Below the pieces are notes generated by a model. It saw only the letters and a list, made by a program, of their open reading frames with translations, had not been told where the DNA came from and searched no databases. From Pirellulaceae bacterium (lineage in GTDB: Bacteria; Planctomycetota; Planctomycetia; Pirellulales; Pirellulaceae), in NCBI GenBank assembly GCA_022446825.1, contig JAKVBY010000027.1, positions 141,318-188,150 of the forward strand: 46,833 bases of DNA. The letters are read 5' to 3'. This document shows, in pieces, positions 32,440 to 42,070 of this stretch. Each line of letters begins with the position of its first letter. Positions within the stretch are counted from its first letter, which is position 1. Both the position numbers and the translations under genes were made by a program.

Positions 32440-33825
32440 TTAGGCTAAAAGTTGCTCTATTCCTGCTGTCAGAAGTGCATCGACTTCGTGATGGCAGAAG
32501 GCCACGCTGACTTCATAACCCCCAGCGGGGTACTCCTCTTTAATCGGGATATACCAGGGCCCGCCGTCACCGTAGGCAGCGGCTGCCACAAACTGATCCT
32601 GCTGCATGCGCTGTGCACGCAGTTGATATTGTACGAAACACTCAGCGGGTAAATGCAGGAGCCGCACTCCGTTAATGTGTAATGAACTCAGTACGATCGG
32701 GACTTGCTGTTCTAGCCGCTGCATCCAGGCTAGCCGGTATGCACAGCGATTGCGATGGATGGAGGATTGATCTGGGTCTGCAATTTGCTGTGCCAACTGA
32801 TCGAAGACGAAGGATTCTCTCTTGGGTGGTAAAAGATTGACGGTTTTCCAGCCGCCGGAATGGATTGCTTCGGGTTGCAATCCTGCCAGTGACTTGAGGA
32901 TTCCTTGATGCAGACGTTTGGTGAGTAAAGGTCGCACTGGTTTCGAGCCGTTGTTGTACTTTCCTGCTGCGACATTTCCGGCACAGCCGGTAAAGTAAAT
33001 GTAAGTACAGGTGGGATCGGCCGCTTGTTGAAGTTTGCGCGCCAGTCCTGCAAAGTCACTACTCACGCGACCATCACCGTAATAGCTCATCGGATGGGTC
33101 GCATAGTAGTGACAAGCTGCTATTTTTTCTGCACCGTCAAAAAAAACCACTGTCTTGAGCCAAGGGTCAATGAGTCCTTCGGGTAACGCGATCAGTTCCT
33201 CATCTTGGCAACTGCTACCGCGCATCCGAAGAATCTGACCATTGCTGTCACGCGAGACGCGCCGATTGGAGGCGACTTTCTCTACTTTTCCTTGGCCTTG
33301 AGCGATATGGGTGATCCGTCGAGGTGAACGGACCGCGGCTTGAATCGTTGTACGTGCTCGATCCAAGCAGCGATGAAAGAAATCGACTTCGACAATCGGA
33401 GGGAGATCTCCCTGCTCTTCGACAATTTGTTGTGCGTCCAGGCAGGCAAAAGGTGCGTTGTGTTGATGTACACACTGTACGGCGACGCGATCCGGTGTCG
33501 TGCCCGCGGCGTCGGCCAGCACCGTCCGCCATTGCACATGCGCATCGTTGAGAATTCCAGTCCAATCGACGGCGCAAATGACAATTGGCTTTCCCAGGCC
33601 CCACAACACGATCCCGATGGCTTCCAGAGAATCGTCCACAGCTTCCACGGGTTTCGTTAACCCACCACAACAAGGATGGCCAGTTGGTGGCGTGACGTCA
33701 AAACGAAACGGGGCTAGATGTAATTCACCCAGGCTCGTAGCTTCGTCCGCCAGACCTGAAGATAGCGACCAGCCAGCCAGCGAAGTCGCGAGACCCTGTT
33801 TGAGGAAATTGCGTCGGGGGTTCAT
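32440..33825 (-). CDS. Tat-exported neutral/alkaline ceramidase-like protein
   Basis: 461 residues. The N-terminus MNPRRNFLKQGLATSLAGWSLSSGLA is a twin-arginine signal. The remainder resembles the N-terminal domain of neutral/alkaline non-lysosomal ceramidases: APFRFDVTPPTGHP, a His-rich CVHQHNAP block expected at the zinc site, and HYYATHPMSYYGDGRVSSDF. Ceramidases split the amide of N-acyl-sphingosine, but planctomycete homologues of this kind are uncharacterised, so the substrate is open. It starts 6 nt after the stop of the giant fusion gene, indicating it is the last gene of the Tol/Ton-like operon. Confidence 0.75.
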   Translation of the reverse strand: MNPRRNFLKQGLATSLAGWSLSSGLADEATSLGELHLAPFRFDVTPPTGHPCCGGLTKPVEAVDDSLEAIGIVLWGLGKPIVICAVDWTGILNDAHVQWRTVLADAAGTTPDRVAVQCVHQHNAPFACLDAQQIVEEQGDLPPIVEVDFFHRCLDRARTTIQAAVRSPRRITHIAQGQGKVEKVASNRRVSRDSNGQILRMRGSSCQDEELIALPEGLIDPWLKTVVFFDGAEKIAACHYYATHPMSYYGDGRVSSDFAGLARKLQQAADPTCTYIYFTGCAGNVAAGKYNNGSKPVRPLLTKRLHQGILKSLAGLQPEAIHSGGWKTVNLLPPKRESFVFDQLAQQIADPDQSSIHRNRCAYRLAWMQRLEQQVPIVLSSLHINGVRLLHLPAECFVQYQLRAQRMQQDQFVAAAAYGDGGPWYIPIKEEYPAGGYEVSVAFCHHEVDALLTAGIEQLLA

Positions 33826-33831
33826 CAGGGC

Positions 33832-36800
33832 CTACTCGTCGAGTTGTTCGTACAGAGGTAAGTGACGGTAATATACTTCGAGCATCAAAAGTTTGAGCGC
33901 TGTGGTGTATAGTCGGCCGCCGGAATTTTCCCAGTTGTCGCGTGGTTCCCAAGTGCCGGCCATGTGGCCATCTTTGATTTGTGTTTGTACTAAATGGTCA
34001 CGTAGTTTGGTATTCCATGCTTTCCAGTAATCCCCCTGCATGTGGTACATGACCTGCGTTCCATAGTACCAATAATAGGACGTGCGGCTTTGATTCGGCT
34101 CCGGTAAATGTTGTAGCAAATAATCTGCGCCAGCCCGCATCCGCGCCTCGTTGCGGCCCGTGTTCATAAACTGCAGACATAACAAACCCTCGGCGGTCAT
34201 GGCGGGACTGACACCTGGGGTTTGGTAGCCGAACAAGCCACCCACCGGTTTGTTGCCTTCGACAAAGGCCAACCACTTAGCGACATTGTTGATGGCTGCT
34301 GGGGGCGGTTGAATTCCTGCCATTTCGCCACTTTTTAATGCCATCATTGCCCAGCCGACCACGGATGTATCAGAGCCTTGATTGGGCAGATATCTCCATC
34401 CGCCCGTGGGTTGGTGCTGTGCTTGGACAAGAAAGTTTAACGCCCGTTCCACCATGGGCTTGAGAGCCGGATCTTTAGTCATGCCATATGCTTCACACAC
34501 TGCGATGGTTGCGATCGAGTGACTATAGATCATTTGCTGAACGCCCGGACCGAACAAACGGCCGTCTTCTTGTTGAACCTCTGTAAACCACTTAATGGCG
34601 GCGGCCATTTGCACTTGAAAGTCGCCAAACTGATGTGTGTTCCCGGCAGCCAGCAGGGGCAACATTGCCAATCCTGTCGCGGCGGAATTGGATTGCACGG
34701 TTCCAAGACGGGTGCAGTTTGGATGCTTACCCTGGCAATTAACATGAAAGTTATTGAGGCTCCAACTTCCATCTTGGTTTTGATGGTCGATTAACCACTG
34801 CAGGCCGCGATTAACAGAGACTTCCGAATCGATTGAGCCATCGAACAACTCAATGAATTGTTTGCGGATATCCCCTTGTCGTAAGGTGAACATTTCGCTC
34901 AGGCCGACGCTGTCTGCGGCATAAACAACACGCGTGGCTTTAGCACGAGGTCGATCCAAACGGCTGACAATAGGTCCAAAGGCTGGCGGCACATCGACAG
35001 CCACATCGGCTAATTCTCCAACGACGATGCGCTGCTGGGCATCACCGGGGCCCGCCATTTCCTGGGGGGTTTGAACTTCTATTTGAGGCGGTGGGTCGTC
35101 CCGTCGTGGAAGATTAATTTGAGCCGTGTTTTGTTCCAGAGAAATGGGTGGAGTTGGGGTGGGAGCTAGGGGGTCGTTTGGCTCGTCCGCAGCAACTTCG
35201 GTCGTTTCGAGTGATACGTTGTTCACACGTTTCGTAAGTTTTGGGAGGACCTCACGCATTTCTTCCTCGGTTTCCACGATCTCTAAGGGTGCCGCGTTAC
35301 GAGGTAGGCTGCGCAGTGGCTGTTCAGACTCAGTATTAAGCTGAGGGACTGAAGTTGTCGATGGGCGGCGGGCCACTTGAATTTGACTTGCTAGTGTGGC
35401 GGGTAAGCGATTTGTCGGCGCGGGAGGAATGATCGGAGCTTCGGTGGCATCGGTTATTTCGACGACCTGTTGTGCGACGGCCGCAACTTGAGGTGCCGTT
35501 ATCTCTTGTGAGAGTTCTGCTGGGGTATTCGGAAACGGGACTTCTTGAGGCAATGCTGTGGCTAAGTCGATCGGTTTGAGCTTTGCTAACGTCGGCAATT
35601 CGGTTGGTTCCAGAGGCGGAGCATCGGTCGGCTGGCTCCGCACGATTTCCACCGGTTGCGTTTCCATGGGTTCTTCTGGAGTAACGGTTGGTTCAAGTTG
35701 CGGGACGTCAATTTCATTGACTAATTCGGCAACCGCCAGGGCCGGAGCCATATCGCGTTCACTAGGCTTCTCGACCTGCGAAACTTCCGTAGGTTCAACC
35801 GGTGCTGAGTAGAGGACGCGATTGGAAGGTAGGTGCCGGGCCAAGTCGATCGAAATGGTCGGCGTAAGGTGGTCGGATTGGTCGGGAAGATTGTTGGGTT
35901 GTGTTTCGCGACGAACCAAATCGATCGCGGTATCCGTTGCTTGCAAGTCAGCGAGTTTCTCCCATGCTTCCTGTCCGTCTTCGTGTGATTCGTGTTGATT
36001 GTCGTCGAACGGTTGGGAGCTTGCTTCGGCTTCCTGAACTTTGGTGACGATGATCTCAATTACTGTGGGGAGTGACCAAAATGCCAATACAATAACCAGC
36101 AGTGCGTGAATGATGATGCTGATGGCAAGAAAGCGACTTTCGGCTAACAGGTGCGTCAGCCAACCACGTGCACGTAAAAGTGCACCTAGTAGGACCGCTA
36201 ACACTGTAAAAATTAATGCGATCGGCCACACTTGGCTCAAGACGGCTAGATGGGCGGTATCCCAAACAACCTCTTGGATAACCTCCGTAGCACGACTTGT
36301 GAAAATCTGGTCGCGACCATTGCGGTTGCTGACAAACAGCAACAAAAACCCTTCCGGAGACAAGGTGGGTTCGGCTTCATCTGCGGCTGAATTGATGTTG
36401 GGCCCGAGATTTTGCACGTGGCCAAACCCATGGCTGGTTCGTCGGGCGGTGTAGAGGTCGAGATGTCTTGGCGAACCAGGAGCCTTTTGACGATCCGACG
36501 TGAAATAGAGTCGTGTCCCGTCCGGAGAAATAAAGGGGGAGTATTCGTGTGATTCTTGGCGATTTACCTCGGACAACGGTTTGGGGCGTGACCAGTCATC
36601 AGCCGGATTGACTCGGTCGCTGTAGAAAAGATCGAAGCGGGATTGTTTTCGTTGCCGGCGACCGGCCTTTTTTTTCGTCGGATCATCTAAATGATCGATC
36701 TTTGTTTCCGTGGCCTCTGCCTCGAGGCGGCGATTCGAAGCGAACAGCAGTTGATTCCCACTTGATGTAATGGACGGCTCCTGCTCGTCGGCCACCGTAT

Positions 36801-37329
36801 TAATGGTTGGTCCCAGGTTACGTGGTTTGCTCCATTGATTGCCGTCCCATTCGCAAACGTAGAGATCAAATCCGCCAAAGCCTCCGGCGCGATTGGAACT
36901 CAGGTAAAGATATTTTCCATCCGACGAGACGACGGCTGCCAGGTCGTCGGCCTTACTGTTCAGTTCTGCAACAGGTGCCAGAGGCTGCCACCTGCCTTCC
37001 ATCCATTGGGCTCTCCAGATGTCCTGCTTGCTTTTGGGAGTGCGAACTGTGCAATACAGGACCGTGCCTTGTTTGGTTAAACGAGGCGTGAGTAGGGAGG
37101 CTTCTGTAATTGATTCGGGTAGTAAATCTGGAATTGCCGTCGCTGGTTGCCAAGCAATGGAGCGTTGCGAAAGTGCTGAGCTCGCTGCAAAGTGAACTTT
37201 GTCATCGAGGGCAACCGTACGGCTTATACGGCGTGGTGTTCCCCAAACCAACAACCCACCTAGCAAAAAAATTGCGATGATCGCCAGCAGCTTTTTCGAA
37301 ATCGGTCGAACCTCAGTTTGGTTTTCCAC
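33832..37329 (-). CDS. Fusion: PD40 (TolB-like) propeller + TonB/TolA-like TM helix + Pro-rich linker + squalene-cyclase-fold domain
   Basis: 1165 residues. An N-terminal membrane anchor (14-29) is followed by a propeller domain (60-350) with PD40 motifs such as LYLSSNRAGGFGGFDLY (141-157), LLFASNR, LYFTSDR and LLFVSNRNGRDQIF. A second membrane helix (368-386), a short basic loop and a third helix (400-420) follow. The third helix contains S404-I-I-I-H408, matching the SxxxH motif by which TonB and TolA contact ExbB/TolQ. Residues 430-800 are a Pro/Glu/Thr-rich linker. Residues 835-1165 form an alpha/alpha-toroid of the prenyltransferase/squalene oxidase type (HQNQDGSW, VQQEDGRL, GGWRYLPNQGSDT), where the cyclase DxDD is only QGSD. 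Topology puts the propeller, linker and toroid in the periplasm. ExbD lies 5 nt upstream. I infer a proton-motive-force transducer. Confidence 0.8.
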   Translation of the reverse strand: MENQTEVRPISKKLLAIIAIFLLGGLLVWGTPRRISRTVALDDKVHFAASSALSQRSIAWQPATAIPDLLPESITEASLLTPRLTKQGTVLYCTVRTPKSKQDIWRAQWMEGRWQPLAPVAELNSKADDLAAVVSSDGKYLYLSSNRAGGFGGFDLYVCEWDGNQWSKPRNLGPTINTVADEQEPSITSSGNQLLFASNRRLEAEATETKIDHLDDPTKKKAGRRQRKQSRFDLFYSDRVNPADDWSRPKPLSEVNRQESHEYSPFISPDGTRLYFTSDRQKAPGSPRHLDLYTARRTSHGFGHVQNLGPNINSAADEAEPTLSPEGFLLLFVSNRNGRDQIFTSRATEVIQEVVWDTAHLAVLSQVWPIALIFTVLAVLLGALLRARGWLTHLLAESRFLAISIIIHALLVIVLAFWSLPTVIEIIVTKVQEAEASSQPFDDNQHESHEDGQEAWEKLADLQATDTAIDLVRRETQPNNLPDQSDHLTPTISIDLARHLPSNRVLYSAPVEPTEVSQVEKPSERDMAPALAVAELVNEIDVPQLEPTVTPEEPMETQPVEIVRSQPTDAPPLEPTELPTLAKLKPIDLATALPQEVPFPNTPAELSQEITAPQVAAVAQQVVEITDATEAPIIPPAPTNRLPATLASQIQVARRPSTTSVPQLNTESEQPLRSLPRNAAPLEIVETEEEMREVLPKLTKRVNNVSLETTEVAADEPNDPLAPTPTPPISLEQNTAQINLPRRDDPPPQIEVQTPQEMAGPGDAQQRIVVGELADVAVDVPPAFGPIVSRLDRPRAKATRVVYAADSVGLSEMFTLRQGDIRKQFIELFDGSIDSEVSVNRGLQWLIDHQNQDGSWSLNNFHVNCQGKHPNCTRLGTVQSNSAATGLAMLPLLAAGNTHQFGDFQVQMAAAIKWFTEVQQEDGRLFGPGVQQMIYSHSIATIAVCEAYGMTKDPALKPMVERALNFLVQAQHQPTGGWRYLPNQGSDTSVVGWAMMALKSGEMAGIQPPPAAINNVAKWLAFVEGNKPVGGLFGYQTPGVSPAMTAEGLLCLQFMNTGRNEARMRAGADYLLQHLPEPNQSRTSYYWYYGTQVMYHMQGDYWKAWNTKLRDHLVQTQIKDGHMAGTWEPRDNWENSGGRLYTTALKLLMLEVYYRHLPLYEQLDE

Positions 37330-37334
37330 GAAAG

Positions 37335-37739
37335 TTAACGCTCCTGCAACGCGGCAATCCGATAGTCCATGTCAGCACGGTTGCACAGGCTCATGACGCG
37401 TGCCGCATACTTTAAGGCGCTTTCGCCATCACCTCGAATCAACGCAGTTTGATGAGGGTTATTTTTTTTTGCTTCGCGGATTAGTGCCTGGAGTTGGGAT
37501 TCATCGTACTCTTGACTGACGACCTTAAAGGTCCCCTCACGCGTAATATTGATGATGAGTCCTTGTGTCATGGCGATAGGTTGTGCCTGGACGACCTCGG
37601 GTAATTCGACGTCCAGTTCACGTTCTTCTTGATCAAAACGCGTGGCCACAAGAAAGAAGATTAACAGCAGAAAGACGACATCGATAACGGGTGTCAGATT
37701 GGGGCTTTCGGAATCTTCGGTAGAGGTTGGTAAACGCAT
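37335..37739 (-). CDS. exbD: ExbD/TolR-family biopolymer transport protein
   Basis: 134 residues: a short cytoplasmic N-terminus, one membrane helix (about 17-34) containing the conserved Asp D20 in LTPVIDVVFLLLIFFLVAT, and a periplasmic domain of about 95 residues. The Asp is the proton-conducting residue of ExbD/TolR. It follows the ExbB gene by 37 nt and precedes the fusion gene by 5 nt. Together the three would form a proton-driven motor complex. Whether it serves TonB receptors, a Tol-like function or only its fused neighbour cannot be settled from sequence; sharing an operon with the fusion favours the last. Confidence 0.9.
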   Translation of the reverse strand: MRLPTSTEDSESPNLTPVIDVVFLLLIFFLVATRFDQEERELDVELPEVVQAQPIAMTQGLIINITREGTFKVVSQEYDESQLQALIREAKKNNPHQTALIRGDGESALKYAARVMSLCNRADMDYRIAALQER

Positions 37740-37776
37740 GACTTGGTTTCAGTTCAGGTGAAAGGGAAGCACAGAT

Positions 37777-38718
37777 TCAAGCTTTCATCAAGGGATTGGT
37801 GCTGGGTATAGATGTGGGGTCTTGTGGGGACGCCGAAGGTGGTGAGGATTCGCCTTGTGTTGCGGGAGTCACAGCCGCTGAATCTGCCAGGAGAGGAATC
37901 AGAGCCACTAAAAACTTGTCCATCTGACGAAAGTACTTTTCGACACGCCCGGAAAAATAAGAGCCCAGCAGCAGTGCTGGAATAGCAACGGAAAGCCCAC
38001 CAGCGGTGGTTAACAAAGCCATGTAGATACCTTTAGCTAAGAGTTCCGCTTTTCCTAAACCGGCTTGGCTGGCGGTATGAAAAGCAATAATCATGCCGAC
38101 AACCGTTCCTAATAACCCCACCAAGGGCGCAACACTACCAACCGTACGTAAGGGGCGAATCTTTGCTTGGATTTCTGACATTTCTCGCACGGCCGCATCT
38201 TCCATCGATTTTTCAACATCGCTGAGTGCACAACCGGATCGCATGATGCCAGCTTGCACGATGGTGGCGACAGGACTTTGTGAACTCTGGCAAATTTCCT
38301 TGAGCGGCTCTAGCGAGGGACGAAGATTTTGCCCAACTTGCTTCAATTCCTGGATAAAGGCGGCAGGGATGATATTCTCGCGCCGCATGTTTACAGCACG
38401 TTCCAGCGCCACAGTTCCGGCAACCAGTGAGAACAAAGCGAGCACTCCCATGAATGCAATTCCGGTAATTCCACTGTCGTAAATCATCGCCAATAAAGAA
38501 TCGGAATTGCCCAAAGATTCATTTGCTGCATTCTCAGAAGAAGGCGATCCTTCTGTTGCGTCGTCGGTCTCTGCCTGGGGGTCCGCTTCCGATACGACGC
38601 CAGCCGGTTCTTCGGCTCGTTGGTCGTCTTGTCCCGCTAATTGCTCTACAAAGGGGAGCGTAAGTAGCAGCACGAAGAGTAAGGCGATCCATTGCAGGTA
38701 GGGAGATTTGTGAATCAT
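37777..38718 (-). CDS. exbB: ExbB/TolQ/MotA-family proton channel protein
   Basis: 313 residues from ATG 38718 with GGAG 7 nt upstream. There is an N-terminal leader (about 10-28), an acidic linker (31-75), then the family core with three membrane helices (about 84-104, 194-214 and 235-255). The blocks GSVAPLVGLLGTVVGMIIAFHT and LLTTAGGLSVAIPALLLGSYF are the MotA/TolQ/ExbB signature. The extra N-terminal export leader is common in ExbB proteins of planctomycetes and some other phyla. It forms the channel with the ExbD encoded downstream. A hairpin lies in the leader at 38740-38770. Confidence 0.92.
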   Translation of the reverse strand: MIHKSPYLQWIALLFVLLLTLPFVEQLAGQDDQRAEEPAGVVSEADPQAETDDATEGSPSSENAANESLGNSDSLLAMIYDSGITGIAFMGVLALFSLVAGTVALERAVNMRRENIIPAAFIQELKQVGQNLRPSLEPLKEICQSSQSPVATIVQAGIMRSGCALSDVEKSMEDAAVREMSEIQAKIRPLRTVGSVAPLVGLLGTVVGMIIAFHTASQAGLGKAELLAKGIYMALLTTAGGLSVAIPALLLGSYFSGRVEKYFRQMDKFLVALIPLLADSAAVTPATQGESSPPSASPQDPTSIPSTNPLMKA

Positions 38719-38739
38719 CTTCAGTCTCCAAAACGTTGT

Positions 38740-38770
38740 CTCAAATCGGTTGATGACCGATCGATTTGAG
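38740..38770. other. Hairpin in the TPR-ExbB intergenic region
   Basis: CTCAA plus ATCGGT (38740-38750) pairs with ACCGAT (38756-38761) and TTGAG (38766-38770) around a TGATG loop, with a 4-nt CGAT bulge. An alternative fold pairs CTCAAATCG with CGATTTGAG (38762-38770). It lies 22 nt upstream of the ExbB ATG and about 110 nt after the TPR stop. There is no U-run, so an RNA processing, stability or attenuation role is more likely than simple termination. Confidence 0.6.
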
Positions 38771-38878
38771 AAAAGTGTTCTTGTGATGTGAGTATTAGTC
38801 GTGGTAAACCGTCAGCGGGCCTATGCTTCAAGGTTCTGGAAGTACTGATTCTGAAATCTAGAATGAAACGTGGACCTG

Positions 38879-41800
38879 TCATTGGTTTAATTCAGCCAAG
38901 ATGGCTTTTGCATCAGCCACCCGTGCGTGGTTGGGAAATTCGTCGACCACCGTTTTTAACATTTCTTGCGCGGCGGCGGGTTTCATTAATTGGATATAGC
39001 AACGCCCTGCTTCAAAATAGCTGAGTGGTTGCCATTCTTCGTGCTTGAATCCAAAGGCGACCTCTGAGAAGCAATCGATTGCTTTGGCATAGTTTTTTTG
39101 TGTAAACCAACACTGTCCTATCATAAACCAACTTTTTGCTGCTGTTTCCGTTTCTGGCTCGTTGTTGATGACCTGTTGAAACACGCCTTTGGCTTCGTCG
39201 AGTTTTTGCTGATGTTGCAGGGCCATCCCGAGGCCATAACGCGCTTCACCGATAACTTCAAAATCGGGAAAGCCATTGACGAGAGCAGCATAGTGCTGCT
39301 GGCTTGCCGCCCATTGCTTCAGGAATGCGGCGCAAACACCGCTACGGTAGTACGATCGGGCGTGAAATTCCTTGGCAGTCTCTCTTGCTGATCCAATTAC
39401 CTTGGCGAAGCGTGCCAGCGCTTCCGGGTAGTTTTTTTCCCGATAAAAACTTTCGCCGAGTAAATACTGGCCGGCTTCTGCCAATTCTCCCTGACCGAAC
39501 TCGTTGACTTGTTGTTGCAGCGTTTGAATTGCGACCCCGTACTGCTCCTGTTTGTACTGAACTGCCCCTAATTTGTACTGTAGTTTTTCACGAATCGTGG
39601 ATTCGGTGTTCTGCTCGGCGGGAATTTTTAGCCCGCTTGTATAAGCGGCAATCGCGGCCGGAAATTGGTCAACCGTTTCATGGAACTCGCCAACCCGATA
39701 CCAACTTTCTGCGGCATGGGAACTTTGCGGTAATTTTTCTGCGAGTTGTCGGAAGTTATCGGCCGCTTCTTTGGTCTTCATTGCATCCAGGTAGGCGAAC
39801 CCTAGCTCGTAATAGATTTCATCGGCCCGTGCATAGTCCGGTTTCTCATTGAGGATGGATTGCAAGAGGGCGATGGCCGGGTCCAGTTGCTTCAGTCCGA
39901 TTTGACAACGCGCCAGAGCATAGCGTGCACCGAGCAAATCCGTTTGTTCGGGTGTGGTGGCAATGAACTCAGTCAAATCGGTCAACGCAGGTTGGAACTG
40001 ACTGAGGCGAAGGCGACACAAACCTCGCAAGTATTTGCCGCGCGGTGCGATTGGAGAAATCGCATGAGTGCCGATTAATTGATCGAGGTGGGGCTGAGCG
40101 CCGGCGAAATCTAATTTCTCGAATTTTGCTGCCGCCATGCCATATAAAGCTTGAGGTACAAAAGGATCCTGTGGAAGTTGTGAGATGAGACTCTGGTAAG
40201 CGGCAATGGCCTCATCGTATTTTTGGTTCTGGAAGCGAATTTCTCCGACTTGGCAAATGCCTTGACCACGAAAGAGACTTTGAGGATGGGCTGCATTTAA
40301 TTCATTGAAGGTCGCGATGGCTGGATCGGCTTGACCAGCACTGCGCATGCTCAGACCTAAGACGAAGATGACTTCATCGACGTGCTCCCAGTCCGGTTTG
40401 GCGGCCCGTGCGGATTGCAGCATTCCAATGGCCTGTTCTGCTCGTTCCGTTTCCAGAAAACAGCGACCAATTAAAAGTCGAGATTCTGCCAAAAGAATCG
40501 GATCTGTGAACAGCGGAGCAGATGTTGTTAATTGCTGGATGGCCGGTTCGTATTTCTTGGCAGCGTGTAGGCAGACACCGATTCCGAGTTGGGCTCGTGG
40601 AAGTCGATCATGTTGAGGGAATTCGCTTATTAAGCGGCGGTAAAAAGCTTCTGCCTTTCCCAGGTCGGGGGGCTCTGGTCGCAGATAGCTTTCTGCTGCC
40701 GAGAGGAGGACTTCAGGTCCCAAGGGGTGCTGCATGAACTCTGGGTTGGCAAGGTAGGTTGCAGTGTATTTTTGTGCGTTAGGATAATCTTGAAGTTGCA
40801 ACGAGCCTAATGCTGCACGATAGAGTGCTTCTGGGGCCTTTTCGTGTGCGGCATTTTGCGCGGCAAATTGAGCAAACAACGGGACGGCTTCCTTTTGTCG
40901 TGCTTCAATCGAAAAAATCGCATCGATGCGTCCGAATTGGCATAGTGGTCGGAATTCACTTTGCGGATAGGCGGCAATTGCTTGATCGAGCGTTTGGATC
41001 GCACCGTTGGGATTTTTGAGTTGCCTGAGTGTCCGAGCAAGCCAGTAGGCAGCTTCGGAGGAGGTGTCTGGTTGTTTTAAATTGACCGCAGCGGTGAAAT
41101 TGTTTTGAGCGGGGGGAAATTCCTTATTCCGGTAGCGGCATTTTCCCGCCGCCAAATATGCTGTACCAATGTATTCGCTTTCCTTGAAACGACCCGGAAG
41201 GGATTCATATTGCGCGGCTGCTTGCGGTAGTTTGTCTTGTTCGAACAACGATTGCGCATATTTCATCACGGCAAAATCGGCATTCGCAAAGTCGGCTGTC
41301 CCCGCTGCCTGCGCAAAGATCGGTTCCGCTTCTGCAAACCGTTGTTGTTTGCAAAGAGAATCTCCCAATCGCAAACGGCAGTCGTTGACTTGTGAGTCTT
41401 GGGGAAACTTCTGGAGAAACGATTGGTAGGTTGCCGTGGCTTCGGTTTCCATTTCCAAATCTTGCTGTGTTGCGCCTAAGGCGTAAAGTGCCCGAGGGGC
41501 GACCGGCGAATTTGGGTGAGCGTTCACGATATTTTGATAAACGGGCAGCGCTGTTTTAAAATCACCGGCCAAGCAGAGGCATTCAGCGCGATAAAAAAGG
41601 GATGTGGGTACGAGCGGGCTGTTCCCAAACTTGGCCGAGACCTCTCCGAACGTCGTAGCTGCTTGATTGAAATCAGCTGGTTTTTGTGATGTGAGAGCAG
41701 CGTTGTAGATCGCTAAGCCAAGATTGAAATGTGTACTATCGAGGGCGGTGAACTGAGGGAATTTGGACAGAATTGTCCGAAAGGTGTTGGCCGCTTCGGC

Positions 41801-42070
41801 ATGTTTTTGTTGCTGAATTTGACAGACCCCCAGATGGTGATAGGCCGTTGGTGTCCGTTTGTGCTGTGGATAGGTTTGAATGAACTGTTGCCAGCGGGGA
41901 GCGGCTTGGTCGAACAATTTCTTTTTTTGAAATCCCAGGGCAACGCTATATTTTCGAGTTGCCTGCGCATCGGCGACTTCGTCTTGGGCCGAGCTAAAAG
42001 GACAAAAAAAGAGCGTTGCTACACAACTAAGTGTGCAGAGAGCGGAAAGAATAGCACCTCGCCAATACAT
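38879..42070 (-). CDS. Large exported TPR-repeat protein (CpoB/YbgF-like role suggested)
   Basis: 1063 residues with a signal peptide (about 1-28, ending FSSA-QDE). Nearly the whole mature chain consists of tetratricopeptide repeats of about 34-36 residues, roughly 25 in number, with recurrent blocks such as AYHHLGVCQIQQQKHAEAANTFRTIL and EIYYELGFAYLDAMKTKEAADNFRQL. Many repeats carry the FPQS/YPQS turn seen in CpoB/YbgF and BamD-like TPRs. In Tol-Pal systems CpoB is the TPR partner; here a much larger TPR protein heads the operon with ExbB and ExbD. It starts after AAGGAG, 7 nt upstream. It probably acts as a periplasmic scaffold. Confidence 0.85.
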   Translation of the reverse strand: MYWRGAILSALCTLSCVATLFFCPFSSAQDEVADAQATRKYSVALGFQKKKLFDQAAPRWQQFIQTYPQHKRTPTAYHHLGVCQIQQQKHAEAANTFRTILSKFPQFTALDSTHFNLGLAIYNAALTSQKPADFNQAATTFGEVSAKFGNSPLVPTSLFYRAECLCLAGDFKTALPVYQNIVNAHPNSPVAPRALYALGATQQDLEMETEATATYQSFLQKFPQDSQVNDCRLRLGDSLCKQQRFAEAEPIFAQAAGTADFANADFAVMKYAQSLFEQDKLPQAAAQYESLPGRFKESEYIGTAYLAAGKCRYRNKEFPPAQNNFTAAVNLKQPDTSSEAAYWLARTLRQLKNPNGAIQTLDQAIAAYPQSEFRPLCQFGRIDAIFSIEARQKEAVPLFAQFAAQNAAHEKAPEALYRAALGSLQLQDYPNAQKYTATYLANPEFMQHPLGPEVLLSAAESYLRPEPPDLGKAEAFYRRLISEFPQHDRLPRAQLGIGVCLHAAKKYEPAIQQLTTSAPLFTDPILLAESRLLIGRCFLETERAEQAIGMLQSARAAKPDWEHVDEVIFVLGLSMRSAGQADPAIATFNELNAAHPQSLFRGQGICQVGEIRFQNQKYDEAIAAYQSLISQLPQDPFVPQALYGMAAAKFEKLDFAGAQPHLDQLIGTHAISPIAPRGKYLRGLCRLRLSQFQPALTDLTEFIATTPEQTDLLGARYALARCQIGLKQLDPAIALLQSILNEKPDYARADEIYYELGFAYLDAMKTKEAADNFRQLAEKLPQSSHAAESWYRVGEFHETVDQFPAAIAAYTSGLKIPAEQNTESTIREKLQYKLGAVQYKQEQYGVAIQTLQQQVNEFGQGELAEAGQYLLGESFYREKNYPEALARFAKVIGSARETAKEFHARSYYRSGVCAAFLKQWAASQQHYAALVNGFPDFEVIGEARYGLGMALQHQQKLDEAKGVFQQVINNEPETETAAKSWFMIGQCWFTQKNYAKAIDCFSEVAFGFKHEEWQPLSYFEAGRCYIQLMKPAAAQEMLKTVVDEFPNHARVADAKAILAELNQ

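Follow-up and report, generated by a model that had tools for sequence, protein, structure and literature searches.

We know of no ftsZ in Planctomycetes. Planctomycetes have also been reported with a largely reduced Tol-Pal system (PMC8871954), which raises the question of how outer-membrane upkeep is powered in this phylum. The window, meaning the whole 46,833-nucleotide stretch of Pirellulaceae DNA analysed here, carries a set of motor-type genes that bears on it, and the question at this locus is what machine these genes encode. The probable answer, to which we assign roughly a three-in-four chance, is a trans-envelope force-transducer system of the TolQRA/ExbBD–TonB kind, driven by the proton-motive force and equipped with a different working end.

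All five open reading frames of the minus-strand gene set were confirmed. They encode a TPR protein, ExbB, ExbD, a 1165-residue fusion and a 461-residue exported protein (Table 1). The TPR and ExbB genes are separated by 160 nt, ExbB and ExbD by 37 nt, ExbD and the fusion by 5 nt, and the fusion and the fifth gene by 6 nt, in agreement with the tight spacing after ExbB that was described in the sequence-only reading of this DNA. A scan for promoters and terminators gave counts similar to those in shuffled sequence.

Table 1. Coordinates of the operon genes and of the segments of the fusion protein in the window.
Feature	Position	Strand	Basis
Giant exported TPR protein, 1063 aa, first of the conserved quartet	38879..42070	-	Pfam TPR_6 2.9e-68
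ExbB/TolQ-type channel protein, 313 aa, extra N-terminal hydrophobic segment	37777..38718	-	Pfam MotA_ExbB 3.7e-28
ExbD/TolR-type protein, 134 aa, channel aspartate D20	37335..37739	-	Pfam ExbD 1.5e-24
Propeller-TM-TM-linker-toroid fusion, proposed force transducer, 1165 aa, GTG start	33832..37329	-	Pfam PD40 2e-30 and SQHop_cyclase_C 2.1e-9, AlphaFold2, relatives
Fusion TM1, residues 12-29	37243..37296	-	Hydropathy, AlphaFold2 model
Fusion PD40 beta-propeller, residues 33-357, periplasmic by topology	36259..37233	-	Pfam, AlphaFold2 model, structure comparison
Fusion TM2, residues 359-386	36172..36255	-	Hydropathy, AlphaFold2 model
Fusion TM3, long helix 394-438, SHLS motif S404/H408/L415/S419, proposed ExbB-docking helix	36016..36150	-	Hydropathy, conservation
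Fusion disordered Pro-rich linker, residues 431-811	34897..36039	-	pLDDT < 50
Fusion alpha-alpha toroid, residues 817-1164	33838..34881	-	Models and structure matches
Exported 461-aa protein, 6 nt downstream of the fusion, outside the conserved unit	32440..33825	-	No homologue beside other fusions

The motor is of the TolQ/TolR type, as had been proposed: MotA_ExbB and ExbD domains are present, the solved structure in the PDB nearest to the window ExbB is TolQ, and the channel residues are kept, with ExbD residue Asp20 aligning with Asp23 of TolR. The proposed TonB/TolA-type membrane helix was also recovered in the fusion. Its TM3, SIIIHALLVIVLAFWS, matches the pattern S-3x-H-6x-L-3x-S exactly (S404-x3-H408-x6-L415-x3-S419), which PMC12905483 gives as the SHLS motif of TolA and TonB, and His408 is invariant in an alignment of nine fusions. 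Across the wider family of proteins that carry the C-terminal toroid, S-x3-H lies in the final transmembrane helix preceding the toroid in 107 of the 148 distinct proteins with a predicted transmembrane helix, compared with 20 of 517 controls, which were other proteins with one to three transmembrane helices from the same loci. The longer pattern S-x3-H-x6-L occurs in 65 of the 148 toroid proteins and two of the 517 controls. Some toroid proteins without S-x3-H carry Asn at the His position (L188 7905-12044, L189 587-4678, L212, L214, L215, L217, L218, L235 and L039); in TonB, the His-to-Asn exchange is reported, in the account given by PMC8928145, to substitute fully (Swayne and Postle 2011). 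Several other motif misses look, from their sequences, like proteins in which the sole N-terminal hydrophobic stretch is a signal peptide.

In E. coli cryo-EM structures, TonB residues Ser16 and His20 contact ExbB residues Ser34 and Trp38, and Trp38 contacts Pro190 (PMC12215075). The corresponding positions were surveyed in 40 ExbB proteins from the examined loci together with TolQ. The contact serine is present in 39 of 39 covering sequences, both channel threonines in 41 of 41 and the proline in 39. The position of TolQ Trp32/ExbB Trp38, which contacts TolA/TonB, is nearly always occupied by a small or aliphatic residue in the ExbBs of toroid loci. Judged by these alignments, the ExbB docking face looks kept but modified.

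Hydropathy indicates three membrane helices in the fusion. In a full-length AlphaFold2 model built on nine aligned fusions, the toroid extends from about residue 810 to 1155, the propeller and the toroid mostly have pLDDT values of 70–90, and the whole-fusion pLDDT is only 58.6 because of the disordered linker. The positions of these elements imply a topology with the N-terminus inside the cell, a periplasmic propeller, a short cytoplasmic TM2–TM3 hairpin, and a periplasmic linker and toroid. The PD40 propeller is TolB-like, as the sequence-only reading had it: Pfam assigns PD40, and the top Foldseek matches are TolB structures (E 3.9e-12). A second structure aligner matched GH62/GH43-type propellers with Z about 21 over residues 55–353, and the strand pattern of the model suggests five blades, against the six of TolB. 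The closest NCBIfam matches of the propeller are PorE and CHU_0125-type Bacteroidota fusions. Tol-Pal-like folds are likewise fused in PorE (PMC12204202), but that protein is described as a putative lipoprotein of the outer membrane that combines CpoB-, TolB-, carboxypeptidase- and Pal-like parts, and no motor helix is described for it. The N-terminal domain of TolB (TolB_N, PF04052) was detected in none of 20 genomes (this genome and relatives) by a search in which the positive controls were detected. Furthermore, the propeller is modular, as four loci (L051, L186, L195 and L196) hold the same operon without it.

The window unit shares with Tol-Pal (TolQ-TolR-TolA-TolB-Pal-CpoB) a TolQ/TolR-like motor, an SHLS helix, a TolB-like propeller and a TPR protein, but it lacks the TolA C-terminal domain, TolB_N and Pal, and its propeller and transducer sit on a single membrane-anchored chain. 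No Pfam or NCBIfam match to a TolA- or TonB-type C-terminal domain, including TonB_C (PF03544), was found in the fusion. The operon contains no Pal, as first noticed, and the only OmpA/Pal-type domain detected anywhere in the genome sits on the same contig at a distance of about 110 kb. Canonical Tol-Pal membership was rejected on the absence of a TolA/TonB C-terminal domain, of TolB_N and of an adjacent Pal. A strict remodelled Tol-Pal would instead combine TolQ, TolR, a fused TolA and TolB, and CpoB, acting on a Pal encoded elsewhere and stabilising the outer membrane at division. The TolB structures among the best Foldseek matches favour this arrangement, as do the absence of TolB_N from the relatives, the reduced Tol-Pal reported for Planctomycetes (PMC8871954) and the TPR protein, a 1063-residue repeat protein in which 13 stretches match tol_pal_ybgF above the cut-off (for the CpoB model, the score is 122 and the cut-off 383). 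It is nevertheless improbable, since the propeller, tethered to the inner membrane, is part of the motor's own chain, has no TolB_N and may have five blades, the operon has no Pal, and versions of the operon without a propeller exist.

Modelled separately from 32 sequences, the toroid gave a model with pLDDT 92.1 and pTM 0.92. This model superposes on squalene-hopene cyclase (2sqc) with Z 26.7 and rmsd 3.1 over 286 aligned residues, with sugar epimerases and GH76 behind. The C-terminal domain had been described as new; it is a known fold in a new place. Two features of type II terpene cyclases were compared: the alpha-alpha toroid fold is present, and the catalytic DxDD motif is absent from the window toroid and occurs anywhere in the sequence in only 11 of 161 toroids. 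The toroid was accordingly rejected as an ordinary squalene cyclase. Compared with squalene-hopene cyclase and other alpha-alpha toroids, the window toroid has the same fold but is single and small, lacks DxDD and is borne on a linker predicted to be periplasmic. Many of its aromatic and charged residues are invariant (e.g. GGWRY, DTS and YYWYY), and their conservation would suit a ligand pocket as well as an active site. The toroid might be a membrane-tethered enzyme, of a terpene-cyclase-like or glycan-processing-like kind, with ExbB/ExbD energising something else or supplying substrate; the fold, shared with cyclases, epimerases and GH76, and the invariant residues speak for this. This alternative is unlikely, as the DxDD acid is missing here and rare in the family, and it leaves the SHLS helix and the linkage to ExbB/ExbD unexplained.

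Conservation of gene order separates the core of the system from its surroundings. In total, 24 distinct propeller–toroid fusions were collected and gene order was scored by an all-ORF search, with enough upstream DNA at 21 loci. TPR, ExbB, ExbD and fusion genes are direct neighbours in that order at 18 of these 21 testable loci. The exceptions are L184, where the motor lies 4.8 kb upstream, L048, which has neither motor nor TPR gene, and L198, which has the TPR gene only. At L046 and L189, a contig edge cuts the upstream region and the remaining order is consistent; L193 is without upstream DNA and so falls outside the count. The order is also kept outside the class of the window genome, at L128 (genome G191) and L157 (G123), which are classed only as members of the same phylum, and at L211 and L244, in records labelled Phycisphaerales and Phycisphaerae. 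Conservation beyond close relatives, the check proposed for the original reading, is thus found in other planctomycete classes, and the gene order is far more widely conserved than is evident from the window sequence alone. Separately, one fusion, preceded by a TPR gene at a distance of 12 nt (L198 7086-11408), comes from a record titled Verrucomicrobiales MAG, which points to a wider distribution or else to mis-binning.

Pairwise distances among ExbB, ExbD, TPR protein and toroid correlate at r 0.86–0.92 over 27 motor–toroid loci, a level reached in 0 of 2000 permutations; shared ancestry contributes to this correlation, and the locus set mixes paralogous operons, three of them from one genome. 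The fifth gene behaves differently. It had been labelled ceramidase-like, a label that gained no confirmation from Pfam (no match) or the PDB (no useful match), and no homologue lies beside any other fusion examined; it was rejected as a component for want of conservation beside other fusions. No other specific partner emerges around the 34 loci examined, because the recurring neighbours resemble, by eye, families abundant in planctomycetes (DUF1501-like, DUF1549-like and sulfatase-like). The conserved unit is four genes, TPR-ExbB-ExbD-fusion, and not five; the view of the five genes as one unit therefore stands for these four, on order and co-inheritance, and falls for the ceramidase-like gene. 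That gene is a chance neighbour, but extending the same explanation to the whole set, as genes without functional link, has a negligible likelihood: the order kept at 18 of 21 testable loci across classes and the correlated divergence both contradict it.

The closest published system is the family of vWA force transducers, which occur in the PVC group with TPR, TolQ-like and paired TolR-like genes and whose function is unknown (PMC12204202). Like the window fusion, these proteins have an SHLS-type transmembrane helix, a disordered linker and a C-terminal globular domain unrelated to TonB/TolA, and a TPR gene adjoins the motor genes. They differ in having a vWA tip, two TolR-like genes and no propeller, whereas the window unit has a toroid, one ExbD and a propeller; neither a vWA C-terminal domain nor paired TolR-like genes were found in it. 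This genome also has an operon of the vWA type (L258, G000:C134, 622-6956), with a 343-residue vWA protein bearing an S-x3-H helix, a TPR protein, an ExbB and two ExbDs. The window unit is a sister variant of the vWA transducer system, set apart by its toroid tip, its lone ExbD and its additional propeller. In the literature covered, mainly open-licence papers, no description was found of planctomycete ExbB/ExbD systems with a toroid or squalene-cyclase domain, and PMC12204202 makes no mention of squalene cyclase or prenyltransferase folds.

The TonB-ExbB-ExbD system has the same motor, S16/H20-type helix face and Pro-rich linker, whereas the window fusion is without the TonB C-terminal domain and has a toroid tip, an extra propeller and two extra membrane helices. 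Canonical Ton membership was rejected on the absence of TonB_C from the fusion. Separate TonB_C proteins are encoded elsewhere in the genome, one of them beside its own ExbB-ExbD. These proteins and the missing domain, together with the lack of any recurrent receptor gene noticed beside the quartets, make it very improbable that the unit energises nutrient uptake through outer-membrane receptors, despite a motor type and helix motif common to TonB.

The force-transducer reading is supported by the parts themselves, the topology signals, motif conservation on both sides of the docking interface, the conserved order, co-inheritance and the vWA operon in the same genome. Against it stand the loss of the ExbB contact tryptophan, the finding that most non-fusion toroids have no motor nearby, and the lack of any recognisable part for binding the outer membrane or peptidoglycan. 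In the proposed mechanism, TM3 of the fusion would use its S-x3-H face to dock against the outer side of ExbB TM1, like TonB and TolA, and the ExbB–ExbD channel would use the proton gradient to move the docked helix. The force would travel along the disordered linker of about 380 residues to the C-terminal toroid, which may grip a partner located in the periplasm, on the peptidoglycan or on the outer membrane. The TolB-like propeller, between TM1 and TM2, would be held beside the motor on the same chain, and its ligand may be a peptide or a lipoprotein, as for TolB. The giant TPR protein, presumably periplasmic, is a likely scaffold or adaptor and, as the sole remaining constant component, also the best candidate for a partner. 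The physiological job of the system is, at a guess, outer-membrane or cell-wall upkeep.

A phylum-wide sample of 149 planctomycete genomes contained 135 with toroid proteins, and all 60 of the relatives searched had matches. The sequence-only reading is supported for the TolQ/TolR-type motor, the TonB/TolA-type helix and the TolB-like propeller, but its label of a rearranged Tol is too narrow because the toroid belongs to this phylum-wide family. Seven further toroid proteins are encoded in this genome. Two belong to additional TPR-ExbB-ExbD-toroid operons (L039 and L041), giving three such operons in total. Two others (L038 6630-8309 and L040 7738-9978) are anchored in the membrane and share the helix motif, but are orphans with no motor genes nearby and may use motors in trans. 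The remaining three (L042 7019-8113, L043 8196-9254 and L044 8184-9239) have no predicted membrane helix and no motor genes nearby and are probably exported. Similarly, 99 of 124 non-fusion toroid proteins have no ExbB/ExbD within 3 kb, and these would therefore need a motor in trans.

Toroid systems together plausibly form a new class of transducer tip. A broader proposal, held tentatively and at somewhat less than even odds, is that toroid-tipped motors are ancient in Planctomycetota, occur several times in each genome and take the role of Tol-Pal, with a TolB-like propeller in cis in one subfamily. The toroid motor set could then be a substitute for Tol-Pal that has gone unrecognised in this phylum. 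Because the motor family is conserved, multi-copy and newly tipped, it offers concrete genes and residues to target (fusion His408 and the ExbB Ser-28-equivalent). Many planctomycete proteins whose only matches are 'squalene cyclase-like' models would also be explained, as probable force transducers, and more kinds of domain would be known to be pulled by ExbB/ExbD-type motors.

Within the family, some members depart from the architecture of the window fusion. In one subfamily (L039 5448-10136, L243, L246, L227 and L253), three helices at the N-terminus are combined with a disordered linker of great length, and the proteins reach 2272 residues. In the orphan L040, the cytoplasmic N-terminus contains four Cys residues in a zinc-ribbon-like pattern. 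In L134 (7239-9602), HEAT repeats follow the toroid, and several other distant members also extend past it.
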